From IMG/VR virus record IMGVR_UViG_3300015371_000136, positions 1 to 28,044 of that record: a stretch of 28,044 nt of DNA; one strand, written 5' to 3'. This stretch comes from a virus. Both the position numbers and the translations under genes were made by a program. The notes under the pieces are model-generated. The model was not told the origin of the DNA. It saw nothing but the letters and a program-made list of their open reading frames with translations, and ran no database searches. The first letter of the stretch is position 1. Each line of letters begins with the position of its first letter. This document shows, piece after piece, positions 4,590-28,044 of this stretch.

Positions 4590-4882
4590 TGCTGCCGTTC
4601 CTCTTCGACCGTTTCACAAAAATCCTTGAACGGCTTACCGTCTTCGATGTTGCCGTTGTAGATCTCGGGCGATACGCGATACGTGACACCGGGGCGGAAC
4701 ACCTCGTTGTGCGCAACGAACAAGCCCTTGATCTTGACCTTGTAATGCTTGACCTCGCCCGACGCGATGGGCATCTCCGCCGGTGAATCTTCATCCGGCG
4801 GGACGTTAATCGGCCCGAAGTCAGGGCCAGCTGCGGGCGGCGTTGCGCGCAGTGCTGGCGTCGTCTTAAGTTTACGTTGCAT
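4586..4882 (-). CDS. Small protein of unknown function between two fibre genes
   Basis: This 98-aa protein starts at the ATG at 4882 and overlaps the end of the 813-aa baseplate/fibre gene by 11 bases. Its own stop overlaps the start of the next fibre gene (ATGA). The first 40 residues are Pro-rich and probably flexible (TPPAAGPDFGPINVPPDEDS). The rest is a small mixed domain with KHYKVKIKGLFVAHNEVFRPGVTYRVS and an acidic C-terminus. The central part (a charged strand, a short loop, then PGVTYRVS) is faintly like the pattern of the two capsid-adjacent paralogs at 14377-15143, where PGET(K/L)EI(E/K)V occupies the equivalent place. The likeness is too weak to assign a family. Confidence 0.65.
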   Translation of the reverse strand: MQRKLKTTPALRATPPAAGPDFGPINVPPDEDSPAEMPIASGEVKHYKVKIKGLFVAHNEVFRPGVTYRVSPEIYNGNIEDGKPFKDFCETVEEERQQ

Positions 4883-7325: not shown

Positions 7326-8969
7326 TTAATTCGGTATGACCTCTCCGACGCTGTATCTGCCTGATGCGTCGAGAAGGTCCCGCACTTGCACAGTGCGCGT
7401 GCTCTTCGTGTAGAGCAGAACCTTGTCGCGTAACGCCATTGACGCGCGCGTCCCACGTCGTAGGCGGTTGACAGCCTCGAGGTTGCGTGGGCGCATGAAG
7501 CCCCACAAGTACCCCGACGTCTTCACGATGAAAGGCGGTAGTTTGCTTTGGATCTTTACGTGAGCCTCCGCCGTATATTTGTGAATACCAAAGCGGCAGT
7601 TGCCCATGTAGACGCTCTTGATGCGAACGTCAGGCACGCGCGCGGGATCGAACAAATACCAGCGCTCGTACATATACCTATAGGCCAGCGACTTCGGTAG
7701 GAACTTGCCATGCAAACAATCGCCACCACCTGAGAACGCTTCGGTGTAGTCGCGACGTTGATGCCTGATTGCGACGTGCTCGGGATAAACGTTGAGAACG
7801 TCGTTATCGGGGAAGATCGTTTGGTATTGCGCCTTCGCTAGTTTGAAATTCAACGAACCATCACGAGGTACAATCACCATGCGCGCACTCGTCGAGTGCA
7901 AGCGACCAAGGAACACCCCGCGCTTTGCATTCGGGAATGGGCGAAGGTATTTGCCTGGCTCCGCTTCGTGATAGATCGACGACTTATGTCCTGGCAGCGT
8001 GATCTGATCCCACGTACGAACCCCGTAAGGTGACAAGTCAACGCTTGTGATCGTACGGAACGTCAGATCAGTTTCAACGCCTGTCATAGGTTCGTACATA
8101 CGAGCGAAGCGCGTGTACTTACCGCCCTGGTTGTAGTTCGTCGGGTACATGCGCCACAATGGGCCAAGGAAAAAACCATTCTTGTTATGTTTCTTCGTGT
8201 GCCCATCGAGTTCAAACTTGTGTCCTGGATAGCATAACCACGGCAGTTGAATGCGTGGCTCGTAAGGGTAAATGCGCAATTGCGGGAAGCGCGCAACATA
8301 AATCGCACGATCAGCGCGCACGAGATCATCCCACTCAGGTTTCGGACGATCATCGAGCCACTGAAAGAACTCCGGGTCCTCATACTTCTCGCGCGTCTCA
8401 ACGCCCGCAGGCGCTGTATATTGAGCATCCGGCACGAGCCAATCTATCGCTGCCGGGATGTCGCCAACCTTTGGCAGTCCAAACGGCAATGCGGGCGGCA
8501 CAATGACACGCTTGACTTCACCACGCACTGCTTTGATGAACTCAATAAGGCCTTGTTTCGTGCCACGGATCGACTTCAACCACCACTGGTTAGCAACCCA
8601 CCAACGCCTGAACTCAACCTGCCAATAAGGCTCCCACAAATTGACGCCCATCGCCCAAGCGAGGAACGGCAGGTTGTGCTCGCTGATCTGCCACGGGTTC
8701 CACTGAACCTTGATGATCTCCGCCGCCATGCGAAGCAGGCGTTCTGCGTCAGTATCAGCGAGCGCCTTCTCAAGCCCCGTTGCCGCGCGATACAAAAGCT
8801 TAGCACCGGGGTTGTCGATCGGCGTTACGTTGAGAACGCGGTACGGGTCGTCAGCGTACTCTTGCGAGAAAATGTCCTTGTCAGGGAACTCAATGACCTG
8901 CAGCGCCTCGGGCGCGCCAATCTCCGGCGCCTCGACTTCGAATGCGGGTTCTATATCAAGGTTTGTCAC
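7326..8969 (-). CDS. Baseplate/tail protein I (P2 gpI-like)
   Basis: This 547-aa protein is a baseplate wedge component that joins the baseplate to the tail fibres in P2-type tails. Residues 55-170 match the P2 gpI pattern: LLYRAATGLEKALADTDAERLL, LPFLAWAMGVNLW, then WLKSIRGTKQGLIEFIKAVRG. P2 gpI itself is under 200 aa. Here about 370 extra residues follow, rich in Pro, Tyr, Trp and basic residues, and probably form additional beta domains. The GTG start overlaps the gpJ stop (GTGA). The order gpV, gp25, gpJ, gpI is conserved among P2-like baseplate clusters and supports the call. The role of the long C-terminal extension is unknown. Confidence 0.85.
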   Translation of the reverse strand: MTNLDIEPAFEVEAPEIGAPEALQVIEFPDKDIFSQEYADDPYRVLNVTPIDNPGAKLLYRAATGLEKALADTDAERLLRMAAEIIKVQWNPWQISEHNLPFLAWAMGVNLWEPYWQVEFRRWWVANQWWLKSIRGTKQGLIEFIKAVRGEVKRVIVPPALPFGLPKVGDIPAAIDWLVPDAQYTAPAGVETREKYEDPEFFQWLDDRPKPEWDDLVRADRAIYVARFPQLRIYPYEPRIQLPWLCYPGHKFELDGHTKKHNKNGFFLGPLWRMYPTNYNQGGKYTRFARMYEPMTGVETDLTFRTITSVDLSPYGVRTWDQITLPGHKSSIYHEAEPGKYLRPFPNAKRGVFLGRLHSTSARMVIVPRDGSLNFKLAKAQYQTIFPDNDVLNVYPEHVAIRHQRRDYTEAFSGGGDCLHGKFLPKSLAYRYMYERWYLFDPARVPDVRIKSVYMGNCRFGIHKYTAEAHVKIQSKLPPFIVKTSGYLWGFMRPRNLEAVNRLRRGTRASMALRDKVLLYTKSTRTVQVRDLLDASGRYSVGEVIPN

Positions 8970-10938: not shown

Positions 10939-11910
10939 CTATTGGTCGTCGTTCTTTACCTTGGCTTCAGGATCTTTTGACTTGATCTGCCATGGAGTGC
11001 TGACGAAAGGTAGCTTCGACTTGACCCAATATTTTTCCTTCGCCTCGCTGACGAACTCCTTCTCGCACTTCATGTTGATATTGCCTTCCTTACTAATGTC
11101 GTAGTAATTGTTTTCGCCAGCGGTCATCTTCGTGCCGTCTTCGTGTGCACGAATTTGCACCTCTTTACCGACGCGTGCTGTGAACCCATTCTTGCTGTGC
11201 AAGCGAAACTTCATCTTCGCTTTTTCACCGCCGACCTTGCGCTGTCCCCCACCTTGTCCTTGCTGTCCGCCGCTAGAGCTTTCACCGCCGCCAGAACTCC
11301 CGCCGCCGTCGCGCGGATCAGACCATTGCTTGTTCTCAGCGTCTTCAAACCAATAGTCGAAGCCGTAATCATCTTGTTGTCCGCCACCACCTGACGAACC
11401 ACCTGACGAACCACCCGATTGACCGCCTCCTTGTTGACCACCTTGCTGCCCGCTTTGTTGTGAGTCGAAGCCCCAACTCTTGCGCATCGGGCCCATCTGC
11501 TCAGGGTATTCGTCCTTCCCACTTTCGTTAGCGTGATCGGGCGGCCCGTGATTTTTGTTTGGCGACATCGGCATGACGACGCCTTGGTGAGGATCGCCGA
11601 AGGGGCAAATGAACAACACGTTCTGTTGACCGCCCTGACCTTGACCGCTTTCACCGCCGCCACCACTTTGCCCACCTCCTCCTGATTGCCCAGCGCTGTC
11701 AGAGAACGGAGGACGTCCTTTCGCTTGCCCATAGAACTGACCATTCGGCACCCACGGTCCGATGACAGGCTTGCCATCAGGACCATTGCCGAAGTTAAGG
11801 CGTAGCATGTCGCCCTTCACCTCTTTGACAGTGCCCATCCTGAACATGCTGCCAAGCTGGCTCTTCATGTTCATGACCTCTTGGATCAAGCGTTGATAGT
11901 CAGATGCCAT
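10939..11910 (-). CDS. Baseplate spike protein (gpV / Mu gp45-like) with Gly/Ser/Gln-rich inserts
   Basis: This 323-aa protein is the likely membrane-piercing spike at the tail tip. Residues 1-60 start like gpV-type proteins: a short helix, then FRMGTVKEVKGDMLRLNFG and PVIGPWVPN. The OB-fold sequence resumes at residues 97-115 with NVLFICPFGDPHQGVVMPM, equivalent to the V.SP.GDP..GVVLP strands of gpV. Between them lies a Gly/Ser/Gln tract (about 71-96). Two further low-complexity tracts occur at 150-179 and 202-223. The C-terminus (230-323) has short alternating strands typical of the beta-helical needle. It begins the baseplate cluster, just downstream of the neck-type gene. Inserts of this kind are unusual for a rigid spike. 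Confidence 0.78.
   Translation of the reverse strand: MASDYQRLIQEVMNMKSQLGSMFRMGTVKEVKGDMLRLNFGNGPDGKPVIGPWVPNGQFYGQAKGRPPFSDSAGQSGGGGQSGGGGESGQGQGGQQNVLFICPFGDPHQGVVMPMSPNKNHGPPDHANESGKDEYPEQMGPMRKSWGFDSQQSGQQGGQQGGGQSGGSSGGSSGGGGQQDDYGFDYWFEDAENKQWSDPRDGGGSSGGGESSSGGQQGQGGGQRKVGGEKAKMKFRLHSKNGFTARVGKEVQIRAHEDGTKMTAGENNYYDISKEGNINMKCEKEFVSEAKEKYWVKSKLPFVSTPWQIKSKDPEAKVKNDDQ
11242..11700 (-). repeat. Low-complexity Gly/Ser/Gln coding tracts in the spike gene
   Basis: Three tracts encode almost only Gly, Ser and Gln: 11623-11700, 11374-11463 and 11242-11307. At the DNA level they are imperfect short repeats of codons such as GGC, GGT, CAA and TCA. They separate the OB-fold halves and the C-terminal beta needle of the gpV-like protein. 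Confidence 0.8.
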
Positions 11911-15202: not shown

Positions 15203-16150
15203 TTAGATCTGGTCGAGGTAGATCATCGAACCCGGGCGACGGATTTCGAGGCCGCCGGTGCGGAAGATGCCGGGGACATCGAATGCGATCGGGCCGGTCT
15301 GCCACACGGGCAGGAACCGATGCGGCATCGGCAGATGGAACTTCAGGATCTGCGGGTCATTGCGATAAGCAATCATCCGCTGGGTCGAACCCGTTCCTGC
15401 CGTTTCAAGCCCACGCACCGCACGCACCGTCAGGGCCTGGCCCGTCGTGGCGGTGTAGGTGTTGTAGTTCTTGAGCCAATCGAGCACGGTCACGTCGCTG
15501 TAGGTCGTCAAGCGAGTGGTTGCCAACAGCGAGAAGTTGGTCGGCGAAATTAGGATCGTATTCGCCATCTCGATGTTGTTCGTGCCCGAATAGATCGCCG
15601 TCAGCGCGGTCGTGTTGATGTCGCGCATGATCTGATCTGGCGTCTTCGCCGACCAGTTGCGAGACGAGGACGTGCCGTCGTTGATTGCGTCGACACGGGT
15701 AACGAGCGAGCTGTTGATAAGCCCTTCGTATCCCTTCGTCGTATCACCACGGAGTGCGAGGTTGTCGAGGAATTCCTCGGCTGCACGAGACGCGGCTTCC
15801 GCTTTCTCCGCGGAGAGCGGGATGTTTGCCATCATGGCCTGTCCCAACTCTTCCAGAGTGTAGCGATAACCGATGCCTGCCAGCTCGATGGTCTTCTCGA
15901 ACTTCGCCTTCTCGACGTCCGCGTGACGGATGTCGGAAGCCTGATGATGCAACCAATCGGCCTGTCCGACCTTGTCGAGCGAGAAGAAGGTCTTCGATTT
16001 GACCCAATCACCGCCAGACGCGTCGATCGGCACGAGGCTGTGGTACTGAATCTCAGGGTACTGAATACGGTACACCTGAGCCTCAATAACCGAAGCCTGC
16101 TGCACCAGGAAGCTAAGGGCTGCCTGGGCGTCGACATTGAAATATTGCAT
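15203..16150 (-). CDS. Major capsid protein (DUF2184-type, HK97 fold)
   Basis: This 315-aa protein would form the icosahedral shell. Its features match the DUF2184 class of HK97-fold capsid proteins. It has an N-terminal QAALSFLVQQ.S.IE..VYRIQYPEIQY segment, then a DIRHADV region with a strand ELAGIGYRYTLEELGQA. The long helix at about residues 117-135 reads KAEAASRAAEEFLDNLALRGD, with the following GYEGLIN turn. A typical ILISPTNFSLL segment lies in the A-domain, and PMPHRFLPVW lies near the C-terminus. The start has an AAAAGGAG site nine bases upstream. It lies after protease, scaffold and decoration genes, which is the standard order. Confidence 0.88.
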   Translation of the reverse strand: MQYFNVDAQAALSFLVQQASVIEAQVYRIQYPEIQYHSLVPIDASGGDWVKSKTFFSLDKVGQADWLHHQASDIRHADVEKAKFEKTIELAGIGYRYTLEELGQAMMANIPLSAEKAEAASRAAEEFLDNLALRGDTTKGYEGLINSSLVTRVDAINDGTSSSRNWSAKTPDQIMRDINTTALTAIYSGTNNIEMANTILISPTNFSLLATTRLTTYSDVTVLDWLKNYNTYTATTGQALTVRAVRGLETAGTGSTQRMIAYRNDPQILKFHLPMPHRFLPVWQTGPIAFDVPGIFRTGGLEIRRPGSMIYLDQI

Positions 16151-16190
16151 TGCGTGATCTCCTTTTGCTACGCCGTTCCAGGCATCACGG

Positions 16191-16664
16191 TTACGTGGTG
16201 TGGTAGGAGCGCGTGAAGCGCGCCACAGCGAGAGCGCCAGAAGCAGCGGACGTAAGCCAACGACTTCCAGGAATGTTCACGCCGGTAGCCGGAGCGAACG
16301 TCCCATCAGCGGCGAGGTAGGTCACAACTGCGCCTTCCGTCACTGCCGAGTTGACCTGAACCCACATGTCGCCTTCATTCAGGACGCCCATGTTGTCCTT
16401 GTTCTGGTACTTGTCGACGGTCTGACCCGCCTGTGCGACGAGTGTCACGTCGCGCACAGACACGCCAAGCACATCGGCAATCGCACCACCGAGCACGGCA
16501 CCCTTGTGGCCCGTGCCCTTGGACACGACTCGGCCAAAGCCGATACCTGCCGTGCCCTCCACGATGCGGCTCTCAACCTTGCGGTCGACGCCCCACTCAG
16601 TGGCGATCATTCCTTCCAAACCGGCGCGAATGCCGGTCGAGTAGGTCGTTTGAACTGCGGGCAT
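16191..16664 (-). CDS. Capsid decoration (head cement) protein
   Basis: This 157-aa protein lies between the protease/scaffold and major capsid genes, the usual site of the decoration protein in DUF2184-type phages. It is beta-rich with GTAGIGFGRVVSKGTGHKGAV, VRDVTLVAQAGQ, then NEGDMWVQVNSAVTEGAVVTYL, a pattern like DUF2190/structural cement proteins in which a Gly-rich loop precedes a VGV.(L/V)RD strand. Such proteins bind to the outside of the expanded shell and stabilise it. The start ATG has a strong AAAGGAGG site. The call is by pattern and neighbours. Confidence 0.75.
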   Translation of the reverse strand: MPAVQTTYSTGIRAGLEGMIATEWGVDRKVESRIVEGTAGIGFGRVVSKGTGHKGAVLGGAIADVLGVSVRDVTLVAQAGQTVDKYQNKDNMGVLNEGDMWVQVNSAVTEGAVVTYLAADGTFAPATGVNIPGSRWLTSAASGALAVARFTRSYHTT

Positions 16665-16710: not shown

Positions 16711-16730
16711 CGCGGCGTTACTTCGCCGCG
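16711..16730 (-). other. GC-only hairpin spanning the scaffold stop codon
   Basis: Bases 16711-16717 pair with 16724-16730 (7 bp, all G/C). The stop codon of the protease/scaffold gene lies in the 6-base loop. A T-run is absent. It might slow ribosomes or protect the upstream message, but it could also be chance in a GC-rich region. Confidence 0.3.
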
Positions 16731-17332
16731 CTGTCACCCCGCCAAGCATTCTGCATGCGCTTGGTGCGGTCGGCATAAGCCTGCGCCGCTGCATCCATCG
16801 AGCTGTGGGCCGGACGATTGCTCGTCGTCGCATCGCCAAGCGCCTTCGCGAGCGGGTCGCTGCCCTTGTTGTTGTCGGCAGTCAGCGCAATGAATGCGCC
16901 GGTGACGCCATCATCGGACAGGCTCTTCGCGATCTGCTCGCCATAGCGGGCGGACACGACGGCACGCTTGATCTCGATGTCCGTACGACCATCGCACACG
17001 TACTTGTCGCCCATGATGGCAGTTGCCTTCTGAACGATGTCGAGGCGATCGCGCACGAGCTTGTCGAGCTTCGCCGGGGTGAGTTCCTTCTCCGCAAGCT
17101 CGCGCTTGAGGGCGGTGATCTCACCATCCTTCTGATCGATCAACTTGCGCTGGTCGGACAGGGACTGCGAAGCCGCGTCGTTCTGCTGCTTCACCTGTGC
17201 CTCGAGCGCGTTGATCTTCTTCTCCCGATCCTCGAGAGCGCGGGTGACGAGCTGCGCCGAGAGTTCCGGCACATCTGCACTCACGCCATCGATAACCATC
17301 GGGCGGAGGTTGACGTTTTGAGTATCGGCCAT
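16718..17332 (-). CDS. Nested in-frame scaffold protein
   Basis: Codon 292 of the protease/scaffold gene is an ATG (17332-17330) preceded by AAAGGAG six bases upstream, a ribosome site as good as those of the decoration and capsid genes. The product would have 204 aa beginning MADTQNVNL, with a coiled-coil middle (EDREKKINALEAQVKQ, QKDGEITALKRELAEK) and a charged C-terminus. This is the layout of lambda C/Nu3, where the scaffold is made from an internal start of the protease gene. It would let scaffold exceed protease in number. The site is seen directly; its use is inferred. Confidence 0.7.
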   Translation of the reverse strand: MADTQNVNLRPMVIDGVSADVPELSAQLVTRALEDREKKINALEAQVKQQNDAASQSLSDQRKLIDQKDGEITALKRELAEKELTPAKLDKLVRDRLDIVQKATAIMGDKYVCDGRTDIEIKRAVVSARYGEQIAKSLSDDGVTGAFIALTADNNKGSDPLAKALGDATTSNRPAHSSMDAAAQAYADRTKRMQNAWRGDSAAK

Positions 17333-18205
17333 AGGGTTCTCCTTTCTGCCGAAGTTGGACTTACGAGCGTCATCAGCGGCCTTGCCGCCAGCATTAGACT
17401 CGTCCATGGCCGCCGCTTGACGCTCAGATGCGCGGGCCTCTGGATCAGTTTCATCGGTGTCGTCACCGATGGCTAACTTGTTTCCACCACGAGCACGATC
17501 GACGACCGCAACGTGGTTAGCTCTGATGTCGTGTTGAACAGCGTCATACATCTGACCATCCGGCGCTGTCCCTTGTTCCCATTTCAGGCCTGACGTGTAG
17601 CCTACTGATAATTGCGCCGTGCCCTTCCTGATGGCATCGACCGCAGCCTGATCCATGATAGTCATGGGTACACGAATAAAGTCGCCATCACGCGCGATCT
17701 CACCACCGATCAGGCCGACTGTGTACTCACGCCAGTTCGAACTGTCGACCATTGTCGGAGGGTGATGCAGCGTGACAGGCTTGTGGGCGAGGGCTTTCAT
17801 CGAGTCGATGTGAAACACCTCGGTGTCGGGACGGTACACGCGAATCTCGTCGCGTTCGTCACCTACCTCCCACCCACGGTAAATTTGAATGCCGGTACGC
17901 GCGATGCGCGGCGTGGCAATCAGGTAACCGTCTTTCGTCAGTTGAAGGGTTGCAGCGTCCTCGAGCTCCATCGCCTGCTCAAAGTCGAACTCAGCGTCGT
18001 TGATCTCGGCGGAGTCCTTCGCTACCCACTTCTCGCCTTCCTTTTTGTACTTCTTCTTGACGGCAGACCAGGCGATCGCGCTCGCGCGCGACTCGCTCTG
18101 CGACTGCTTGTAAGCTGCATTGAAGGCGGCAACGAAAATCTTCTTGGCACCCTCGGGCAAACCTTCCTTGCCCTTGCCGAGTTCCTTTGTGTTGCCATAG
18201 GGCAT
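16718..18205 (-). CDS. Prohead protease (ChaB + DUF2213) fused to scaffold
   Basis: This 495-aa protein combines three parts. Residues 1-60 match the ChaB fold: LPEGAKKIFVAAFNAAYKQ, then AIAWSAVKKKYKK and W60. Residues about 85-245 match DUF2213 phage prohead proteases: ARTGIQIYRGWEVGDE, IRVYRPDTEVFHIDSMKAL, then HKPVTLHHPP and LSVGYTSG, ending RANHVAVVDRARGG. Candidate catalytic residues are H147/H148 and S200, as in the His/Ser proteases of the HK97 gp4 type. Residues 292-495 form a scaffold-like tail, with a coiled coil at about 330-375. The protease would cut scaffold and capsid during maturation. The start ATG has an AAAGGA site. An internal strong start is given separately. Confidence 0.87.
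   Translation of the reverse strand: MPYGNTKELGKGKEGLPEGAKKIFVAAFNAAYKQSQSESRASAIAWSAVKKKYKKEGEKWVAKDSAEINDAEFDFEQAMELEDAATLQLTKDGYLIATPRIARTGIQIYRGWEVGDERDEIRVYRPDTEVFHIDSMKALAHKPVTLHHPPTMVDSSNWREYTVGLIGGEIARDGDFIRVPMTIMDQAAVDAIRKGTAQLSVGYTSGLKWEQGTAPDGQMYDAVQHDIRANHVAVVDRARGGNKLAIGDDTDETDPEARASERQAAAMDESNAGGKAADDARKSNFGRKENPMADTQNVNLRPMVIDGVSADVPELSAQLVTRALEDREKKINALEAQVKQQNDAASQSLSDQRKLIDQKDGEITALKRELAEKELTPAKLDKLVRDRLDIVQKATAIMGDKYVCDGRTDIEIKRAVVSARYGEQIAKSLSDDGVTGAFIALTADNNKGSDPLAKALGDATTSNRPAHSSMDAAAQAYADRTKRMQNAWRGDSAAK
17333..17344 (-). promoter_or_regulatory. Internal ribosome binding site for the scaffold
   Basis: On the minus strand AAAGGAG lies six bases before an in-frame ATG inside the protease/scaffold gene. 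It sits at the junction between a low-complexity linker (residues 250-291) and the scaffold part, just where a nested start would be useful. Confidence 0.65.
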
Positions 18206-18219
18206 GAGCGTGTCCTTTC

Positions 18220-18621
18220 TTACGGGCTCGTGAGAGCCGGTGTACCGATGACGGGAGCGCCCACAGCGTATGCAAGCGCAGCAAGCATTGTCCCGAATGG
18301 ACTCTTGGCGACGACGATCTGTCCAGTTGACATGATCTCCTCGCCATTGATGCGACTGAAATCGGTGTATCGCCCAACGGGCACTGATGCTGTCTTCGCC
18401 GCTGATACGACGATAGAAGCGAGGCCACCTGCGGGGTCGGTTTTCGTGATCGTTACATCGCCGGGCTGGTTTAGAACAGGGAGTTGGTTCTTATCGAGCA
18501 AAGCCCACTCAACTGTCTTGCTCGCGATATCCATCACGGCACCGCTCGCTTCATAAAACTTGATGTGGAACTCCCAGCGCGCGGACTGGTACACGTTCAC
18601 GAGTGAATGGGTTGATGTCAC
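18220..18621 (-). CDS. Small beta-domain phage protein ending in an APVIG motif
   Basis: This 133-aa protein starts at GTG 18621-18619, overlapping the stop of the giant fibre gene (GTGA). Residues 1-100 look like a small Ig-like or BppU-N-like domain: ARWEFHIKFYEASGAVMDIA, then VEWALLDKNQLPV, DVTITKTDPAGGLASIVV and a GRYTDFSRINGEEI end. The last 16 residues read AVGAPVIGTPALTSP. This is one complete core of the repeat that fills the three large genes before it, although the rest of the protein is unrelated to them. It may be an accessory that docks to the fibre, or a structural adaptor between fibre and head. Function unknown. Confidence 0.7.
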   Translation of the reverse strand: MTSTHSLVNVYQSARWEFHIKFYEASGAVMDIASKTVEWALLDKNQLPVLNQPGDVTITKTDPAGGLASIVVSAAKTASVPVGRYTDFSRINGEEIMSTGQIVVAKSPFGTMLAALAYAVGAPVIGTPALTSP

Positions 18622-21600
18622 GCTGCTCTTCTCCCAGTGAATAGGGGTGGTTCGTTGCGAGCGTCAAACTCAACTACAGCGCTCGCGCGCCCTACCCAAT
18701 CAGGTGCCTCGTCGGCGCGCCCTACGATAACCTCTAACTCGTCAGCATGCCCCACCCATTCGGGAATGAGGACCCTGCCATCCCATGCCGCTGTCGGTGC
18801 GCCAGCGACGCCCGGCACTTGGATATCGGGCGCGCCTACGGTTAATCCTTGCGCGTGCAGGACTACCCGGACAGCGATCTTTGGGCGACCGATCGTGGGC
18901 CGCTCGAGGAGCACTGCTTGAGCCGACAAGCGATGCGTCTGGGCCAAGGAAGGAGCGCCAAGGACTGGCGCGCCTGTCGTCAATGGCACAGGGTAGTGCG
19001 ATACGAGCGCAGGCGCTCCCAGCGCGGGTACTGCGACCTCTAGCGAACGCGGCACAAGCCGCACCCGGACCTGTATCTGGCCCACGCCAATCGATGGCGT
19101 GCCTACTGCGAACGGAGGGGCGCTAACTTGCACCATTGTTCGCATCGTAGGCACGCCAATCGAGGGCGCGCTCGTTACGAGCGATGCGGGCGTGATGTTA
19201 CGTCCGAAATAACCAACGCCGATTTCAGGGTTCGATTGAACCCTACTCGGCGCTACAAAGTTCGCTTTCGCCAGGAACGCTGGCGTACCGATCGTTGGTG
19301 CACCGACGGTAAACGTCGTAGAGAACGCATGCACCTGCGCGAATGTGCCGACACCTATGAACGGCAACCCCGTTTCGATCGGGACAGCCTGCATCACCCC
19401 TTCGATGCCTATCGTCGCAAGGCCGAAGAAGGGGTGCGTCACTGTCAGGTTCGAAGCCGACAGTATTTGATGCTGATGCAGGACACCAACACCACGGAAC
19501 GGGTTCGCCGTTTCGAAGTTAGGCGCCGTGAAGTGAACGACACGAACAAGCGCCGGTGCACCAATGACGGGCGAGCCCGTCGCAAGCGTCGGCGCTGTCG
19601 CGTTAACGATGACGTTAAGCGCGCGCTGCCCGATGACTGGCGTGCCACCGATGACATCAACCGCCGTCAAATTGACACCGCCGATCATCGATCCGAGGCC
19701 GATGTCGGGCGTGTCAACGTTCAAGTCAGCCGTCAACATCCTGACGATGACGTGCGCCGTTGCCGTACCAATCGTCGGCGCGCTAACCGCAACGTTGACG
19801 CTTGTCAACTTGACAACGCCAACCATTGCTGGCGTGCCGATGACGGGCGCACTTGTCGTCAAGCTTTGCGCTGTCGGATGTGCGACAGCAACGAGTTCGG
19901 GCGTGCCAAACTCAGGACTATTCGTAACCTTGCTTTGGGCGTGAATAACGCGCCCATACGCACCAACACCAATCGACGGCGCTGTGACGGCAAGGCTTGA
20001 CGCTGTCAGATGAGAGATGGCAGCGAACGAACCAACACCGATCGACGGCGCTGTGACAGCGATACTAATCGCCGCCATCACACCTGTCTGACCCAACTGC
20101 CCAGCGTCAATCACCGGCGCTGTGGTCGTGAACCCGACAGGCGTCAGTATATGCTTTTGCGCGAGCGAGCCTTCGCCTATGACAGGCGACGAAACGACAA
20201 GCGCAACAGGAACAGTGCTGACGACGTTCGACGCGTTGACGACGGGCGAGGCCGTGGCAAAACCAATCGGCGTGAGCACATGCGTCTGCGTGATCGGACG
20301 CGAGCCCAGCACTGGCGACGAAACGACAAGCGCAACAGCGGTGAGCCCAACCGCCCCCGTCATGCTACTCATGCCGATTTCAGGCGACGAGTCGTCAAAC
20401 GAGGTTGCGCTCAACACATGCTTTTGCGCGAGCACGCCTGTACCAATGACAGGCGAACTATCGGCAAGCGTAACAGCGCTCAGAACCTGACCAATCGTCG
20501 ACGCGCCAATTACCGGCGAGCTGACGATAAGGTTCGTGGCAGCAAGCACCTTGCCAAGTGCTGGTGCACCAATGACAAGCGAACCAACGTCGATACCCAG
20601 CGCACTAAGCACTTTGCCAAGCGCTGGTGTACCAAACACAGGCGACGTATCAGCGAATGATACGGCAGCAAGGACGTGGGCTTGCGCGATCGTGCCTGAA
20701 CTAATGACAGGCGACCCGACGACCAAGTCAACGGCGGTCAGCGATGTCGCGCCCGTCATACTGCTCGTGCCAATGACAGGCGACGAAACAGTCAGCGACG
20801 TGGCGGTAAGAACGTGTGTTTGCGCGAGCACGCCTGCGCCAATAACCGGGGCGCTGACAGCAAGCGACGTGGCGGTAATGTTGTAACCGCCTTTGGCCGC
20901 GCCAATAACAGGCGACGACGTAGTGAGGTTTGTGGCGGTTAAATTGTATCCGCCTTGTGCCGCACCAATGACCGGCGAACTATCAGTAACCGACGGCGCA
21001 GTCAGGTTGAAGCCGGGCGCTGGCGTACCAATGACTGGTGAGCCAACATTTATACCAACAGGCGTCGGGCCAAGCGTGACAGAACTAAACGTCGGCGCGC
21101 TGTCGTCAACGTTGACGGCAACGAGGACATGCTTTTGCGTGATCGTGCCAACGCCAATGACTGGCGAACTAACCGTGAGGTTGACAGCGTGCAGGCTCGT
21201 GGCGCCTGACAACCCAAAGTCTGGCACGGTCGAAAGGTATGCTGCGCCGACCGTCACGCTCGAAGCGGTGAGATCGATTGCAGCACCACCCATAACAGGT
21301 GCGCCAATCACTGGCGAGCCGACCGCGAGCGAGGTCGCAGATAACACTTTAACTAAAGCACCCTGTCCAATAACAGGCGCGCCGACAGCAAGTGAGGTCG
21401 CAGACAAAACCTTGACAAGCGTAGGCGAACCGATAACAGGCGCACCAACAGCAAACCCAGTTGCCGTCAAGGTCTTAACAAGCGCAGGCGCGCCGATGAC
21501 CGGGCTACCAACCAGCAATTCGGCAATAGTGGCGTCTACGAAGAGTACGTAAGAACCAGTACGAGCAAGCGCCCCAACATTGCCACCCGCGACCAACGCT

Positions 21601-24593
21601 TCGCTACGTTCCTGATACCAAGTACCATAACCGTAGTTAGCGGTAACAATCGGCGGGCCAGACAAGGGCTGCGCACCAATTGTTGTGATGCCTTCGAAGC
21701 CTGCCGTGAGTAACGTCGTCGTGCCCATCTTCGCGGTCACGTCGTCCCACAGCAACTGCGTGTTGCCGCCAGGATTACTCACGAAGTCGCGCACCCGCAT
21801 CGCGCCGAGGAACGCACCGAACGCCCGCTTATCGAAGGGCATATAGTTCGGGTAGTCCAATCGGTACGCGCTCAGATCGATGTTGTCGTTGAGCCCGGTG
21901 CCTTCAACCTGTAAACTTACAAAGTGCCGCGTTGCATAGTTGGCGGTCACTCGTATCCTGTACCAACCGCCTTTAGTTAATGCAGCACTAAGCGAAAGGT
22001 TCTGCCAAGTCCTATCTGTGCTTGGGGTACCGGCTTCTGTCGCTGCCGTACCAACCGCAACGATGACCGCACCCGTCGGCTGGATGCCGACGAAGGCCAT
22101 CCAATCACCACCGCTGTAGTATGCCGGGTTGGACGTGCCGTCATACCATTCGGCGTCGATTGAGATAACAAGGTCGTCCGCCGCGTCAGACGGGACGAAA
22201 ACATAACCTTCAACGTAGCCCGTGCCCGGCGTATCAACCCAAGAGCCGAAGTTGTCGGCGCATATCAGCGACACGGCGGTGCTGAGCCGTGACGGTCGCA
22301 TGTCACCGATCTTTAGCGCGACCGCGACGCTATTTTGCGTCAGCGTGCCCGCTCCGATGACAGGCGATCCAACAGCGAAACCCGTTGGGGCGAGCACGTG
22401 TTTTTGAGCGAACGTACCCGTACCTATGACCGGCGACGAAATAGTCAGCGATGTTGTGAACGCGTGTGCTTGCTTGAACGTTCCAGCGCCAATAACAGGC
22501 GCACCAACTGCGATGTTGGTGCCGACCATGCCCGTCAAGTACGCGCCGACATCAAGCCGGGAGTCTAAGTTCAGAGCAACAAATGTCGGTATCGTCGACG
22601 ACTGCGCCAACACAGCCGTTGCAATGTAAGTTACGAGGCCACTGGCATATGCCGGTGATGCGCCCGACGGCCAGAATTTACCATTAGCAACATCAGCAAG
22701 CAACGGATTAGCATTTTGATCGTTGTCTGCGAACGTGTTCGCGTTCCACGTCGAGATGCTGCTACCATCAACGCCAGCGAGTTGATACCACGTCGCGCTC
22801 GCCGTGTTGTAGAAAATGTTGTTGCGGCTAGTGACGTTCGTGTTGGCGTTTGTATTCGAGTCGAGGTTGATTGCTCGAACCGCCGAACGAGTGGCAACGA
22901 AGATGTTGTTCGCAACGATCAGGTTCGTGACGCTCCCGCTCGCGGTCGCGACAACGTGGAACTCACCAATCGCGTTAGCGTCGAGCGCTGTGTCTACAAC
23001 GTTGCCGTAGGTCGTGTTGTTGTAGACCTTCGCGTCAGCGTCGTCATAGACCGAGATGCCATACGATCGACAGCCCGTGACGATGTTACCGTAGATTTCA
23101 CACTGATCGCAGAAGCGATCAAGGCCAATGCCGCCACCGTCGAACGTCGTGCCTGTTTGATCGACGACGTAATTGTACCGAATGATGTTGTGGTTGCCCA
23201 CGCCATCGTTATCGGTATCACCAGTGAAGCCGGTGAAACAGTGAATACCAATCGACTCTTCGGCCGAATGGTTGTTGTGAACATAGTTGTACTGAACGAT
23301 GTGATAGTTCGCCCGGATGAGGATCGGGCTGGCAGTGTTGCCGTACACCTCATTCTGACTGACTATGTTCTCATTGCCAGCAGTACACGCCGAGTTAATG
23401 TAGGCGTGGAAGCCCCACACGTTGTTGTAGAGCTTATTGCTTAAGAACTGGTTGTTCGCACCAGCGTCAGTAAAAACCAGCAAGCCAGCGTTGCTGTCGT
23501 GGATGTCGCAATTCGACACCGTGACGTGATGCGAAGCTCCACTACCCGTAAGGACAACTGCACCGAGCGTACCCGTTGCGTTCTTAAGCTCAAGGTTGTC
23601 AATGGCAACGTAAGCCTTGACGATGTAAACGCAGTAACGCGTGCCAGTAATGTTAACCGAGTCGATGATCGGCTTCGCGCCCGTGCCGTACGCACTATAG
23701 CCGACAAGATGACCAGCAGTGCCGTCTGACGACGGGACAAGACCCGCTGTCTCTGCCCACGTGTCGCCACGATTGAATAAGATCACATCGCCTGGATTAA
23801 AGGCGGTGTTATTGACCTTGTTCAACGTCTGCCAAGGAGCGCCCGAGCTAAGACCGTTGTTGCTATCAGAACCTGAATTAGCAACGTAGTAAACATTCGG
23901 CCCCATAAGGGGCGTGCCGATGACGGGCGACCCAACAGTGAGGTTCGTCGGTTGACTTGCACCCGATGAAACGACTGCGATCGTGACAGCACGCCACGCG
24001 CCTGTCGACCATGCCGACCATGCGGCAGGATCTTCCGAAGCACCTGCACCCGTCGTCAGAATACGCGAGCCATAACCGCAACTGTATGGGCGCGTCGCAT
24101 TGGCGTTGCCGTCACCGAGCGTATAGTTTGTGACAGTGCCCTTCGACGTGTCAGAGACAGCGCTACACGCCGCGATCAATATGCAATCGGCATTGCGGTT
24201 TGGAATGATCGCTGGCGGATTCGGGTTCGTGCTCGAGCCGTTCGCTGCTACAACCGCAACGTCTTCACCACCCGCAGCGCCAGCAACGATGATTGCGCCG
24301 TAGACAACGCCATCACCAGCAGTACCTGAACCAAGGCATGTCGGCCCAGCTTCACCCGCTGTCAACGTTTTACGCCACACACCAAAGCGACGCGTCGCCG
24401 TAGCGTTGTCGGCGTAAATATTCGTGTAACCGGCGGTCTGTATACCCGGGTTGTTCGCACCCGCTGTACCAAAGCCGCCAAATATGTAGGCGATGTCGCC
24501 GGCTTGAACGCTACCTGACGTCCAAGAGATCGTGACGTTAGCGCCCGCTGTCGAGCCAGCGCCTGAAACTGTTTGTCTGATCGTGATTGCCAT
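18618..24593 (-). CDS. Giant fibre protein: beta-helix plus lectin-like domain plus about 45 APVIG repeats
   Basis: This 1991-aa protein is the largest product here. Residues 1-210 form an N-terminal beta domain (AGANVTISWTSGSVQAGDIAYIF, WRAVTIAVVSS). One repeat core occurs at 215-230. Residues 233-690 are a right-handed parallel beta-helix of the pectate-lyase/NosD type: YYVANSGSDSNNGLS, the N-rich coils HHVTVSNCDIHDSNAG, NEVYGNT, YNYVHNN, YGNIVTG and RNNIFYN. Three repeats follow (about 695-755), then a lectin- or CBM-like segment (757-1023, with DLVISIDAEWYDG, GGWYRIRVTANY and FVSLQVEG). Residues 1024-1925 hold about 41 repeats, and a unique C-terminus closes (AWDGRVLIPEWVGHADELEVIVG). The beta-helix suggests polysaccharide binding or cleavage. 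The start ATG lies two bases after the previous stop. No catalytic residues can be named. Confidence 0.82.
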   Translation of the reverse strand: MAITIRQTVSGAGSTAGANVTISWTSGSVQAGDIAYIFGGFGTAGANNPGIQTAGYTNIYADNATATRRFGVWRKTLTAGEAGPTCLGSGTAGDGVVYGAIIVAGAAGGEDVAVVAANGSSTNPNPPAIIPNRNADCILIAACSAVSDTSKGTVTNYTLGDGNANATRPYSCGYGSRILTTGAGASEDPAAWSAWSTGAWRAVTIAVVSSGASQPTNLTVGSPVIGTPLMGPNVYYVANSGSDSNNGLSSGAPWQTLNKVNNTAFNPGDVILFNRGDTWAETAGLVPSSDGTAGHLVGYSAYGTGAKPIIDSVNITGTRYCVYIVKAYVAIDNLELKNATGTLGAVVLTGSGASHHVTVSNCDIHDSNAGLLVFTDAGANNQFLSNKLYNNVWGFHAYINSACTAGNENIVSQNEVYGNTASPILIRANYHIVQYNYVHNNHSAEESIGIHCFTGFTGDTDNDGVGNHNIIRYNYVVDQTGTTFDGGGIGLDRFCDQCEIYGNIVTGCRSYGISVYDDADAKVYNNTTYGNVVDTALDANAIGEFHVVATASGSVTNLIVANNIFVATRSAVRAINLDSNTNANTNVTSRNNIFYNTASATWYQLAGVDGSSISTWNANTFADNDQNANPLLADVANGKFWPSGASPAYASGLVTYIATAVLAQSSTIPTFVALNLDSRLDVGAYLTGMVGTNIAVGAPVIGAGTFKQAHAFTTSLTISSPVIGTGTFAQKHVLAPTGFAVGSPVIGAGTLTQNSVAVALKIGDMRPSRLSTAVSLICADNFGSWVDTPGTGYVEGYVFVPSDAADDLVISIDAEWYDGTSNPAYYSGGDWMAFVGIQPTGAVIVAVGTAATEAGTPSTDRTWQNLSLSAALTKGGWYRIRVTANYATRHFVSLQVEGTGLNDNIDLSAYRLDYPNYMPFDKRAFGAFLGAMRVRDFVSNPGGNTQLLWDDVTAKMGTTTLLTAGFEGITTIGAQPLSGPPIVTANYGYGTWYQERSEALVAGGNVGALARTGSYVLFVDATIAELLVGSPVIGAPALVKTLTATGFAVGAPVIGSPTLVKVLSATSLAVGAPVIGQGALVKVLSATSLAVGSPVIGAPVMGGAAIDLTASSVTVGAAYLSTVPDFGLSGATSLHAVNLTVSSPVIGVGTITQKHVLVAVNVDDSAPTFSSVTLGPTPVGINVGSPVIGTPAPGFNLTAPSVTDSSPVIGAAQGGYNLTATNLTTSSPVIGAAKGGYNITATSLAVSAPVIGAGVLAQTHVLTATSLTVSSPVIGTSSMTGATSLTAVDLVVGSPVISSGTIAQAHVLAAVSFADTSPVFGTPALGKVLSALGIDVGSLVIGAPALGKVLAATNLIVSSPVIGASTIGQVLSAVTLADSSPVIGTGVLAQKHVLSATSFDDSSPEIGMSSMTGAVGLTAVALVVSSPVLGSRPITQTHVLTPIGFATASPVVNASNVVSTVPVALVVSSPVIGEGSLAQKHILTPVGFTTTAPVIDAGQLGQTGVMAAISIAVTAPSIGVGSFAAISHLTASSLAVTAPSIGVGAYGRVIHAQSKVTNSPEFGTPELVAVAHPTAQSLTTSAPVIGTPAMVGVVKLTSVNVAVSAPTIGTATAHVIVRMLTADLNVDTPDIGLGSMIGGVNLTAVDVIGGTPVIGQRALNVIVNATAPTLATGSPVIGAPALVRVVHFTAPNFETANPFRGVGVLHQHQILSASNLTVTHPFFGLATIGIEGVMQAVPIETGLPFIGVGTFAQVHAFSTTFTVGAPTIGTPAFLAKANFVAPSRVQSNPEIGVGYFGRNITPASLVTSAPSIGVPTMRTMVQVSAPPFAVGTPSIGVGQIQVRVRLVPRSLEVAVPALGAPALVSHYPVPLTTGAPVLGAPSLAQTHRLSAQAVLLERPTIGRPKIAVRVVLHAQGLTVGAPDIQVPGVAGAPTAAWDGRVLIPEWVGHADELEVIVGRADEAPDWVGRASAVVEFDARNEPPLFTGRRAA
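18819..21524 (-). repeat. Main APVIG repeat array (about 41 units of 63-69 bp)
   Basis: The stretch encodes residues 1024-1925 of the giant fibre protein. Each unit has the form (L)TA.(S/N)L.V(G/S)(S/A)PVIG followed by 7-9 variable residues. Two linker types alternate: a Q.HVL type giving 23-residue units, and a short GAAQGGYN or PALVKVL type giving 21-residue units. Toward the C-terminus the core degenerates to APSIG, NPEIG or KPKI-like forms. The DNA units differ by many synonymous changes, though short words recur. Confidence 0.88.
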
Positions 24594-24595
24594 GA

Positions 24596-27028
24596 TCAGA
24601 CTCCCGGCTGCACGATCGTTATGGGATCGAGCGTCCAGGCGATACCATCAGCAGTGGCAGCGTCGCCAGTTAGATCGCCATGCGCGAGCAGGCGCGAGTT
24701 CACCGTATCGATGACAGCCCAACGATGCACTGTACCAACAGACGTCGTCGTCCCGTCCTCGATGGCAGCTGACGATATCTTTCGTCCAATGCCCGTCTCG
24801 GTCTGTGGCGTGCCGAAGACGTTGCTATGCTCACCCAATTGGAAGCTGACCGCTTCCGCGTACGTCGTCGGCGGTGCCGAGCACACGATGATCTTGTCAG
24901 CCTCGGTACGCAACACGTCGAGGCCAGCGTCGCGCACGTGATCATGGAGCCAGAAGTTAATCGACAGCTCCGGCAACGTGAACACAGGCGACGCAACGAT
25001 AAGATCAATCGCAACAGCGTTGACCGTGACTGCTATCGTTGACGCGCCGATGACAGGCGACGAAACAGTCAACGCTGTGGCGGTTATTGCGTACCCGCCT
25101 TGTGCCGCGCCAATGACAGGCGCGCCTACAGCGAAGCCTAACGCTGACAGCACCTTGCCAAGCGCTGGCGCACCAATTTCAGGCGACGTATCAGCGAATG
25201 ATACGGCGGAGAGGTTGTAACCTCCCTGTGCAGCACCAATGACTGGCACACCAACAGCAAGTGAAGTCGCTGTGAGGTTATAACCGCCTTGTGCTGCACC
25301 GATTACAGGTGAACCAACAGCGAGCGACGTTGCCGCTAAATTGTACCCACCCTGTGCAGCGCCAATGACCGGCGAACCGACAGTAAGGTTGACAGCGGTA
25401 AAGTTCGTCGCACCAGAGGTGGTCGCAGCATCTATGACCGGCGACGATAGGACAAGTGCACTCGGGGACAGGACGTGCACCTGTCCTATCGGCGGGCTGT
25501 CTTCAACCGGAGGCCCTGTGATCAGGTGCGCGCCAGAGATGACGTGCCCTTGACCAATGCCAGGAACAGTGAACGCAGGCACAGAGTCAGTGATGCCTGT
25601 CGTCGTCATCGGAACAATGATGACAACAGTGCTCGACCCAATGACCGGCGACGACGTTGTGATACCCACGGGCGCGAGCACGTGCGCCTGAGTGAGCGTG
25701 CCTGTACCAATGACAGGCGACGAAACAGTCAGGCTCGCTGCGCTCAATACCTTGACAAGTGCCGGTGACCCAAGCACCGGCGACGACACAGCAAGGCTGA
25801 CCGCTACCGTATTGATCGCCTCGGGGGTACCGAACACAGGTACGCCAACCGAGAAGCCTGTTGCCGTCAGCGTCTTCCTCAACTCAACCGAGCCAAGGAC
25901 AGGTGACGATACAATCAACGACGCGCCAGGCAACACGTGCGTCTGCGTGATCGCGCTCGTGCCTATGACGGGCACCGATACGGTGAGCGCTGTCGCCGTG
26001 ATGTTGTAACCACCCTGTGCAGCGCCAATGACCGGCGAACTGACAGTGAGGTTCGTTGCTGTCGCGTTGACGATGACCGCCATCGTCCCTGCGCCAATGA
26101 CAGGCGAACCAACGGTGAGGTTCGTCGCTGTCAGATCAGTGCCTGACGAGGCAGCGCCGAGCGTCAGCGACGGCCTTGTCTCTTGGTACGGCGACGCGGT
26201 CGAGTAACCAACAGGCGTCAGCACCGTCACAATGACGACCGACGACGTGCCTATAACAGGCGCGCCCACGGCGAAGCCTGTCGGTGGTAGCACCTTCCGC
26301 AACTCGACAGAACCGAGTACAGGTGAACCAACAGCAAGGCTTGTTGCAACTGTGTTGACGACGTTGGGTGTGCCGAGAACAGGCGACCCAACAGCTAAAC
26401 TATTTCCTGTAAGTGCGTTGACGACAGTAAAGCTAGATGTCGTGATCGCACAATTCGAACCAACACGGAAGTCCGCGTCGGCGTTAGTGTTACCACCCTG
26501 TGTCGTGATTTCCCATTCGCACTGAACGAACAGGTACTCGTTATTCAAACTAAACGCGCCAGGATTGAACGTCGTGTTGCTCGAGTCGCTGTCGGAGCCT
26601 GACGCGAGCGTGATGATCGAACACGATTGCCAGCCGGAGCCTATCTGGGTGGCGTCCGACATATCGGCTTGCGTGCCGCGCCACAACTTGAACTTGACGC
26701 GCCCAGCCTGTGACGACGTGTTGCTAACCGAACGAAGAATGAAGTGGAACGCCCAAGCAGCGCTCGCAAACGTACCCGTGTACGTGTTCTCAGTTCGCCA
26801 GCAATCCTGCAACCCCGCAGCGCCAGGCGCCGATGATGGCTCCGTTGTGGAGAACGTACCGTTCTCCTTGCCATAGTCCATCAACGCGAAGTTAGCGGTA
26901 GCCGTCTTGCCCGGCTTCCACCCAGTGGCTATCGTGGCAGCAGTCGGCGCAGTACCTCCATCCTGCAACGAACCGTTGCCAGCAGGCCCTGCAACAGCGT
27001 CCTTAAGATAGAAAGTAAGCGCGGCCAT
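24596..27028 (-). CDS. Repeat-rich fibre protein (810 aa) with about 22 APVIG units
   Basis: This 810-aa protein starts at ATG 27028-27026, overlapping the previous stop (TGATG). Residues 1-204 form a beta-sandwich-like N-terminal domain (AALTFYLKDAVAGP, VKFKLWRGTQADM, NNEYLFVQCEWEITT) as seen in phage tail proteins. Residues 205-690 hold about 22 units of the SPVIG repeat, including four nearly consecutive units with a GAAQGGYN linker (about 549-645). Residues 691-810 form a C-terminal domain (ADKIIVCSAPPTTYAEA, then WAVIDTVNSRLLAHGDL) that is shared with the partial gene at the right edge. The protein is probably a rod-like fibre or decoration, with capped ends. Host target unknown. Confidence 0.8.
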   Translation of the reverse strand: MAALTFYLKDAVAGPAGNGSLQDGGTAPTAATIATGWKPGKTATANFALMDYGKENGTFSTTEPSSAPGAAGLQDCWRTENTYTGTFASAAWAFHFILRSVSNTSSQAGRVKFKLWRGTQADMSDATQIGSGWQSCSIITLASGSDSDSSNTTFNPGAFSLNNEYLFVQCEWEITTQGGNTNADADFRVGSNCAITTSSFTVVNALTGNSLAVGSPVLGTPNVVNTVATSLAVGSPVLGSVELRKVLPPTGFAVGAPVIGTSSVVIVTVLTPVGYSTASPYQETRPSLTLGAASSGTDLTATNLTVGSPVIGAGTMAVIVNATATNLTVSSPVIGAAQGGYNITATALTVSVPVIGTSAITQTHVLPGASLIVSSPVLGSVELRKTLTATGFSVGVPVFGTPEAINTVAVSLAVSSPVLGSPALVKVLSAASLTVSSPVIGTGTLTQAHVLAPVGITTSSPVIGSSTVVIIVPMTTTGITDSVPAFTVPGIGQGHVISGAHLITGPPVEDSPPIGQVHVLSPSALVLSSPVIDAATTSGATNFTAVNLTVGSPVIGAAQGGYNLAATSLAVGSPVIGAAQGGYNLTATSLAVGVPVIGAAQGGYNLSAVSFADTSPEIGAPALGKVLSALGFAVGAPVIGAAQGGYAITATALTVSSPVIGASTIAVTVNAVAIDLIVASPVFTLPELSINFWLHDHVRDAGLDVLRTEADKIIVCSAPPTTYAEAVSFQLGEHSNVFGTPQTETGIGRKISSAAIEDGTTTSVGTVHRWAVIDTVNSRLLAHGDLTGDAATADGIAWTLDPITIVQPGV
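24958..26416 (-). repeat. APVIG repeat array in the 810-aa fibre gene
   Basis: About 22 coding units of 60-69 bp encode residues 205-690. Identical 31-base stretches occur at 25347-25377 and 26010-26040. A 22-base word starting at 25050 recurs at 25710 and, in the next gene, at 20773. This shows that repeats within and between the two genes are related at the DNA level, not only in protein. Confidence 0.85.
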
Positions 27029-27312
27029 CAATCAACCCAATGGAACTTATAGGTGCAAGAGGGTTTATCAGCGATCAAGTCAGGGTGTGTGGGCCACACA
27101 TTACACCCGCTCATGTAGTACGCGTTCTCCTGTCCCACTGGAACAGCGCCGACATGCCCACGACAAAAGCCCTCCTTGTTCTTCCGCTTCCATTCGAACA
27201 TCGGGCAATAGCCGGGGACCTTCCTCAACTCACCCACCATCGACGGGTGATTAGGATCACCCGTACAACATTCGCCGCAACGGCAGCAAGTACCTTCTCT
27301 GATCCATGCCAT
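27028..27312 (-). CDS. Small Cys-rich protein, YkgJ-like metal-binding motif
   Basis: This 94-aa protein starts at ATG 27312-27310, which overlaps the previous stop (TAATG). A reading from 27438 would overlap the upstream gene by 127 bases. It has nine Cys: C9, C10, C12, C15, C16, C36, C50, C70 and C86. The opening TCCRCGECCTGDP matches the C..CG.CC signature of the YkgJ family of zinc- or iron-chelating proteins, and later Cys lie at spacings compatible with it. The family's biochemical role is poorly defined. Its place between two repeat-fibre genes suggests a role in making or modifying those fibres, for example metal loading, but this is inference. It has no signal peptide or membrane segment. 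Confidence 0.72.
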   Translation of the reverse strand: MAWIREGTCCRCGECCTGDPNHPSMVGELRKVPGYCPMFEWKRKNKEGFCRGHVGAVPVGQENAYYMSGCNVWPTHPDLIADKPSCTYKFHWVD

Positions 27313-28044
27313 TACGACCTCGGTAAGTGAACGATGATCGCAGGTAGCGACCATGCTAGGGTTGTGTCGACGTGCATCGGAGTGGCGATGTAACCTGACG
27401 CAAGCAGGCGAGAGGTGTTCGTGTCGACAGCGGCCCAAGCGTTCACGTCACCATTAGCGTCTATCACTCCATTCGTGATCGCTGTCGACGTTGCCGACCG
27501 ACCATCTGATATGGCGCCCGGCGAACCGAACACCGTGATGTCCTTATGCCCCAATGCCGTTGACGTTGCCGCGCTGTAATCGGCGGGACGATCGGGACAA
27601 ATCAACATCTTGTTGCAAGCAAGCAGCTCTGTCAGCCCTTTGTCGAGCACGTCGCTGCCCAGCACAAATGAAGCGCTCTCGATAAAGAGCTTGCGCGAGC
27701 CGATGACTGGCGAGCTATCAACAAGGCTGACCGGCTTGAGTATCTCCGCGAGCGGAACACCAATAATCGGCGCACTGTCAGCGTAGCTCGTAGGCCCAAG
27801 CGTGTGCTTCTGAGTGAACCCACCTACCGGGATTACTGGCGAGGCAGTAGCCAGGCCTGTAGCTGTAATAGTGACAAAGGATACAGACGGTGCCCGCAAC
27901 GGTTGCCGGAATAAGTACGGCGGAGAGACCGGCGGGTGGTCAGCTACCCTGAGCGGCGCATTAGTCAAAACGCCTAGCGCAAGTGTTGATGCTCCTTTAA
28001 CAAACCAACTTGTTTGAGCCTGCACATCAGGGTCATTAACCAAC
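27312..28044 (-). CDS. Repeat-containing fibre protein, C-terminal part (N-terminus beyond window)
   Basis: The reading frame is open to the right edge, so the true start probably lies outside; the first possible codon inside is a TTG at 28043. In 243 visible residues, about 52-130 hold three or four units of the SPVIG repeat (TASPVIPVGG, SAPIIGVP, SSPVIGSR). Residues 132-243 form a terminal domain: ACNKMLICPDRPADYSAA, then WAAVDTNTSRLLASGYI and a final LAWSLPAIIV strand. This domain is also found at the C-terminus of the 810-aa protein downstream. The domain order (repeat, then this cap) is therefore the same in both genes, indicating duplication. Confidence 0.72.
   Translation of the reverse strand, partial: LVNDPDVQAQTSWFVKGASTLALGVLTNAPLRVADHPPVSPPYLFRQPLRAPSVSFVTITATGLATASPVIPVGGFTQKHTLGPTSYADSAPIIGVPLAEILKPVSLVDSSPVIGSRKLFIESASFVLGSDVLDKGLTELLACNKMLICPDRPADYSAATSTALGHKDITVFGSPGAISDGRSATSTAITNGVIDANGDVNAWAAVDTNTSRLLASGYIATPMHVDTTLAWSLPAIIVHLPRS
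27315..27650 (-). other. Shared C-terminal cap domain of the repeat fibres
   Basis: Residues 132-243 here align by eye with residues 691-810 of the downstream protein (coding 24599-24958). Matching elements are a K(M/I)(L/I)(I/V)C.(D/A)(R/P)P..Y..A segment, a (V)FG(S/T)P turn, then A(A/V)(V/I)DT.(T/N)SRLLA.G and a closing A W(S/T)L strand. It is likely a folding or attachment domain of the fibre. Confidence 0.65.

Follow-up and report, generated by a model that had tools for sequence, protein, structure and literature searches.

The window analysed here, the whole of IMG/VR virus record IMGVR_UViG_3300015371_000136, is a viral contig of 28,044 bases. Its structural genes come from an uncultivated phage with a contractile tail and are all encoded on the minus strand. 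Four neighbouring genes at the far end of the contig encode proteins sharing a short repeated unit with the core (S/A)PVIG, hereafter the SPVIG repeat, and these proteins likely serve as shafts or spacers of virion fibres, as judged from sequence comparison and structure prediction. The features of the four genes are listed below, with positions in the window and lengths in amino acids (aa); loci of relatives carry numbers preceded by L, and Ig stands for immunoglobulin.

27312..28044, minus strand: partial putative fibre gene, 243 aa in the window, three units followed by an anchor-type C-terminal domain
27669..27878, minus strand: the three units of the partial gene (matrix scan)
27315..27671, minus strand: C-terminal domain of the partial gene, a paralogue of that of the 810-aa protein
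24596..27028, minus strand: 810-aa putative fibre gene (810 aa from ATG, 811 from TTG), with N-terminal domain, 21 units and anchor-type C-terminus
26417..27028, minus strand: N-terminal domain of the 810-aa protein, common to L007, L008, L046 and L047
24956..26419, minus strand: repeat array of the 810-aa protein, 21 detected units with a period of 21/23 (matrix scan)
24599..24952, minus strand: anchor-type domain of the 810-aa protein, 118 aa, predicted fold like 9c39_K (Sf14) and the 9mt4 neck chains (Bas63)
18618..24593, minus strand: 1991-aa putative fibre/spike gene, 42 detected units
23949..24593, minus strand: N-terminal domain, aa 1-215 of the 1991-aa protein, no family match
22554..23924, minus strand: right-handed beta-helix domain, aa 224-680 of the 1991-aa protein (PF13229, 5.9e-10 at 346-527)
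22299..22535, minus strand: block of three units between the two globular domains of the 1991-aa protein (matrix scan)
21528..22298, minus strand: second globular domain, aa 766-1022 of the 1991-aa protein, a stand-alone 267-aa protein in L011 (44% identity)
18804..21536, minus strand: main repeat array of the 1991-aa protein, about 38 units (matrix scan)
18220..18621, minus strand: 133-aa protein, possibly Ig-like (weak), with one terminal unit
18223..18267, minus strand: single C-terminal unit of the 133-aa protein, AVGAPVIGTPALTSP (matrix scan)

The gene coordinates given in an initial annotation of this DNA were all correct, as was their placement on the minus strand. Units were detected with a 19-column scoring matrix trained on the window's units at a threshold score of ≥ 7. 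The scan returned 67 units, with 42 in the 1991-aa protein, 21 in the 810-aa protein, three in the partial protein and one in the 133-aa protein, while 200 shuffles of the same residues gave a mean of 0.09 and a maximum of 2. The initial annotation had counted about 70 by eye (about 45, 22, 3–4 and 1), and this figure holds against the roughly 0.1 expected, since gaps of 46–52 residues probably hide a few degenerate units. The strict motif [SA]P[VTSE][ILV]G was found 27, 14, 1 and 1 times in the same order of proteins (0.24, 0.10, 0.03 and 0.01 expected by chance). The genes had also been described as adjacent; they are neighbours but not strictly consecutive, as a Cys-rich open reading frame (ORF) separates the 810-aa gene from the partial gene. 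This small ORF (27028-27312, minus strand; about 94 aa, MAWIREGTCCRCGECC...) starts near the stop of the partial gene and had no match in the family search. Likewise, the 1991-aa protein does hold many units, but they do not form a single long array and are split by the beta-helix and the second globular domain, the layout being N-terminal domain, one unit, beta-helix, three units, second domain, about 38 units and a short tail.

Spacings of 21 and 23 residues predominate in the window, plus a few of 19, 20 and 22. The 21-residue form is SPVIGAPALVKVLSATSLAVG and the 23-residue form is SPVIGTGTLTQAHVLAPVGITTS. The units consist mostly of V, A, T, G, S, L, P and I, with about 30% V/L/I, 5.5% charged residues and neither Cys nor Trp. 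Identity between units was 52/67/34% at codon positions 1/2/3, and identical residues were encoded by different codons between units in 63% of cases, both indicating conservation at the protein level; the units are evidently old and kept alike by selection on the protein. An artefact of low complexity or DNA slippage was ruled out by the codon-position pattern.

The repeat region had no match in Pfam, PHROG or PDB, including in the profile and library search for an already described repeat family that the initial annotation had proposed as a way to refute novelty, and nothing relevant to the motif was found in the literature. With the window included, the repeat was collected from 50 ORFs, which fall into 35 clusters at 80% identity. 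The consensus search of viral contigs yielded 22 viral loci. Beyond these ORFs, the collection of annotated phages contributed a further related array, in gp11 of Octadecabacter virus DB2. The repeat profile also found gp57 of CRP-6 (E 7e-33), a podophage of marine Roseobacter (PMC6918029). Among the relatives, the spacing was exactly 23 residues in 179 of 237 cases, and the commonest residues were, in order, G-Q-V-H-A-L-T-A-T-S-I-V-T-G-S-P-V-L-G-S-P-A-L. CRP-6 and DB2 support the link to phages of alphaproteobacteria drawn in the initial annotation. Searches built from the window sequence gave few relatives, and a DNA motif pattern gave four chance hits. No relative emerged from two scans of bacterial and archaeal genomes, each resting on six exact 8-residue seeds, so that absence from prophages is not proven. 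The window's other structural proteins had no homologue within the fetched flanks of the relatives' contigs, indicating that the module rather than the phage lineage is shared. By these comparisons, the SPVIG repeat is a widespread family that is listed in none of Pfam, PHROG and PDB and lies outside any named repeat family. It is large and regular, and its members are called 'hypothetical protein' even in the cultured CRP-6, a phage of an abundant ocean group.

DB2 gp11 (L010, 7065-8591) is annotated as 'ribonuclease E', a label that looks wrong since the protein belongs to the SPVIG repeat family. A candidate glycosyltransferase–repeat fusion in L025 was rejected, because the supposed glycosyltransferase ORF overlaps the repeat gene in another reading frame.

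The shape of the array was modelled with AlphaFold2 on an eight-unit segment of the 1991-aa protein (A8), using a 19-row alignment drawn from viral contigs and the window. The mean predicted local distance difference test score (pLDDT) was 71.6 and the predicted template modelling score (pTM) 0.60, with the five models ranging from 58 to 72 pLDDT. One 6-residue strand plus short strands recurred in most units, which weakly supports a solenoid-like beta rod with moderate model confidence; as repeat arrays are often rendered as solenoids by AlphaFold, the model is weighted accordingly. A fold search with the repeat model against solved and viral predicted structures returned nothing significant. 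It could be argued that the repeats are flexible, largely unstructured spacers that merely lengthen the proteins, given their low charge and narrow composition, the moderate confidence and spread of the monomer models and the failure to match any structure significantly. However, the strict 23-residue register across phages, the proportion of V/L/I together with protein-level selection, and the periodic strands at the pTM obtained all speak for a regular fold, and a disordered spacer is highly unlikely. Of the earlier proposal of a repeated beta element building a rod, the periodic beta prediction, the spacer role and the presence of two proteins with a fibre-anchor domain are in favour, while the 'new fibre-shaft fold' is not established by a monomer model of moderate confidence.

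A rod-like fibre with a repeated strand-turn unit and Pro/Gly in the turn is known from the adenovirus-type triple beta-spiral shaft. Its period is about 15 residues versus 23/21 here, and the SPVIG repeat has no sequence match in PDB.

The attachment of the putative fibres was approached through their C-terminal domain. The 810-aa protein and the partial gene product both end in the same domain of 118 residues, which elsewhere forms a separate protein of about 122 aa, such as gp62 of CRP-6. The anchor-domain profile matched the 110-aa chains 9c39_K (E 0.0014) and 9mt4_I (E 0.027) in hmmsearch, and hhalign against the 110-aa neck protein gave E 1.1e-5 and a probability of 82% for an alignment spanning the last ~47 residues only. 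The predicted model of the domain reached pLDDT above 90 over most of its length, and Foldseek matched it over the whole domain to 9mt4_K, 9c39_K and 9mt4_L (E 5e-5 to 3e-4; template modelling (TM) score by target 0.73-0.80). Profile and predicted fold together indicate that the anchor-type domain is distantly related to the Bas63 neck protein and the 110-aa neck protein of Sf14.

PDB entry 9C39 is the neck reconstruction of Shigella phage Sf14, in which the portal is gp29 and the neck carries gp30 and gp31 as its whiskers (PMC11821841). In Sf17, a related Shigella phage, two genes separate the portal from the head protease. The second is the homologous 110-aa gene; the first had no hhalign match to the anchor domain. 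As this order matches that of Sf14 (gp29 portal, gp30, gp31), the Sf17 110-aa gene holds the place of gp31, and chain 9c39_K is very probably whisker gp31. Sf14 gp31 and its Felix O1-like relatives, whose gene lies between portal and head protease, resemble the anchor domain in profile and predicted fold, but identity to Sf14 gp31 is only ~15-20%, and the Sf14 whiskers are short, formed by gp30/gp31 dimers, with no SPVIG shaft reported.

Gene context was examined for the anchor domain and the repeat. At least 38 of 82 anchor genes lie directly after a portal-like ORF, a lower bound as such ORFs were sought with four portal queries. Of 80 loci detected with the anchor domain alone, 25 also contained the SPVIG repeat, and in the window the fibre genes directly precede the head protease. 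Gene-fusion logic, applied to the fused anchor and shaft of the window, suggests that the stand-alone anchor protein of other phages may bind the C-terminal end of the shaft.

On balance, we favour the reading that SPVIG units form both the shafts of virion fibres and the spacers between their domains, and that these fibres attach to the phage neck (collar region); a neck location is moderately likely from the domain homology and predicted fold. Several observations weigh against it. The portal gene is not included in the window's record. Anchor ORFs fused to the repeat occur only in the window (2 of 83), and the anchor domain is absent from the 1991-aa protein. CRP-6 is a podophage, in which neck and tail tip are close together. 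The anchor model moreover resembles 9rkv_A, from a 7-7-1 tail-fibre map (E 5e-3, TM by target 0.49), and may therefore represent an adaptor domain for fibres in general. If such an adaptor is used at the tail end, the repeats would form shafts of baseplate or tail-tip fibres or of tailspikes. Some further evidence points the same way: the beta-helix domain is typical of tailspikes, neighbours in CRP-6 and DB2 are annotated as tail fibre or tailspike, and a weakly matching Pfam model is named for the GP4 'fiber I'. This model, PF23140 (Gp80 of the GP4 podophage), matched 6 of 16 anchor-domain members, all under the Pfam cut-off (best 20.5 bits versus 27), and the window's own anchor copy did not match it. 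A tail-end location is nevertheless rather unlikely, as neck proteins gave the best matches in both fold and profile searches, and the genes probably lie in the head module between portal and protease/capsid, with separate fibre-like genes following the window's baseplate genes.

The same position in the head module, directly before the protease, cement and major capsid genes, would also suit capsid (head) fibres. Fibres of this kind, of unidentified protein, are reported on the alphaproteobacterial myophage 7-7-1 (PMC12796354), and phrog_240, labelled 'head protein', was matched by 8 of 16 anchor-domain members. We regard capsid fibres as improbable, since the homologue of known place sits in the neck and not on the capsid, and no capsid-binding domain was recognised.

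For fibres attached at the neck, the C-terminal domain of the 810-aa and partial proteins would bind the neck, that is, collar or adaptor proteins, and elsewhere a separate anchor protein would do so instead of a fused domain. The repeat array would be a rod pointing outward, with the N-terminal domain at the free end. The 1991-aa protein could belong to the same set as a larger spike whose array holds the beta-helix spike domain and the second domain off the particle. Such cargo domains may touch or trim host surface polysaccharide, and the fibres would probably make the first, reversible contact with the host surface, besides the baseplate fibres encoded further downstream. We infer virion location, rod shape, oligomeric state, fibre direction and receptor function from these comparisons and models. 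The initial annotation's rod-type repeat fits this picture, which adds the neck-type anchor, the beta-helix insert and the spread among unrelated phages that it had missed.

By analogy, SPVIG fibres would work like the known neck fibres of XM1 (gp40) and A-1(L) and like the Sf14 whiskers. The collar spike gp40 of XM1 is a trimer that attaches to the neck and has a tailspike-like head, but its anchor is an N-terminal Ig domain and its shaft a coiled coil (PMC10457771), whereas a beta repeat and a C-terminal anchor-type domain of another family are found here. The neck fibres of A-1(L) (gp80, gp81, gp82) are also long and made of many repeated elements; these are ~14 separate gp81 trimers arranged as beads (PMC10966104), in contrast to the repeats within one chain in the window. 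If SPVIG proteins are neck-anchored shafts, the profile would make fibre proteins, along with the cargo domains that they bear, recognisable to annotators in many environmental phages, and the family would offer a beta repeat of unusual regularity and tunable length. A more speculative proposal, which we hold only tentatively, is that the 23-residue unit represents a new class of virion fibre shaft, either a regular beta-solenoid or a trimeric beta rod with a standard length per unit, that moves between unrelated tailed phages together with the neck anchor protein. If true, it could account for the missing proteins of the neck or capsid fibres that microscopy has shown on alphaproteobacterial phages.

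The domains placed on repeat blocks were compared among relatives. In the 1991-aa protein, the Pfam Beta_helix cut-off was passed in three stretches (39.4 bits versus 25.9), and residues 224-370 matched lacto-N-biosidase chains; the domain is probably polysaccharide-binding or polysaccharide-cleaving. In L020 (7553-10399), three units are followed by LamG, three units, an M14 carboxypeptidase and four units, and the M14 zinc carboxypeptidase is possibly a surface-trimming enzyme on a fibre. Other relatives carry CBM96 (L021), LamG (L017) or a weak SPRY match (L033). In these layouts, repeat blocks evidently serve as spacers between globular domains. The N-terminal domain of the 810-aa protein sits on the SPVIG repeat in L046 and L047, and on two other short-period repeats, of the VAVAETAAATDAQSSTAIKP and AAGTSTAAATG types, in L007 (1368-3797) and L008 (2452-5406). 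Its occurrence on differing repeats suggests that several interchangeable repeat shafts exist in phages.

A second possible link to the neck is provided by Ig-like neighbours. A gene of ~105 aa often follows the repeat gene and in L027 matches BppU_N (6e-6). In L047, a 201-aa protein (8032-8637) combines an Ig-like domain with the head-tail adaptor Ad1 (phrog_40, 8e-4), and the Ig-like part is weakly similar to the L029 copy (BLASTP E 0.005); the order at this locus is protease, capsid, anchor, N-terminal domain plus repeat, and Ig-like domain plus Ad1. An Ig-like stretch follows the repeats within one ORF in L033. The window's 133-aa protein occupies the same gene place and ends in one repeat unit, and its Ig-like signal is weak (phrog_1084, E 0.02; hhalign against an Ig-like set, probability 5%).

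The remaining genes of the window complete the structural module. On the minus strand, the four fibre genes are followed by head protease, cement protein, major capsid protein, connector-type and baseplate genes, and then by probable baseplate fibre genes and the tail sheath.

16718..18205, minus strand: head maturation protease (DUF2213, 2e-47), the first gene past the fibre genes
15203..16664, minus strand: cement protein and major capsid protein (family and profile matches)

The cement protein belongs to the E217 gp24/Pam3 gp6 family (E 1e-27) and is also similar to XM1 gp53 (E 5e-11); the major capsid protein match had E 6e-85, and the tail sheath matched phrog_23 (4e-44). A 323-aa protein in the baseplate gene region (10939-11910, minus strand) has long Gly/Ser/Gln-rich linkers and no PHROG match. 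An 813-aa protein (4872-7313, minus strand) matches phrog_17470 (function unknown, 3e-94) and is probably a baseplate fibre.

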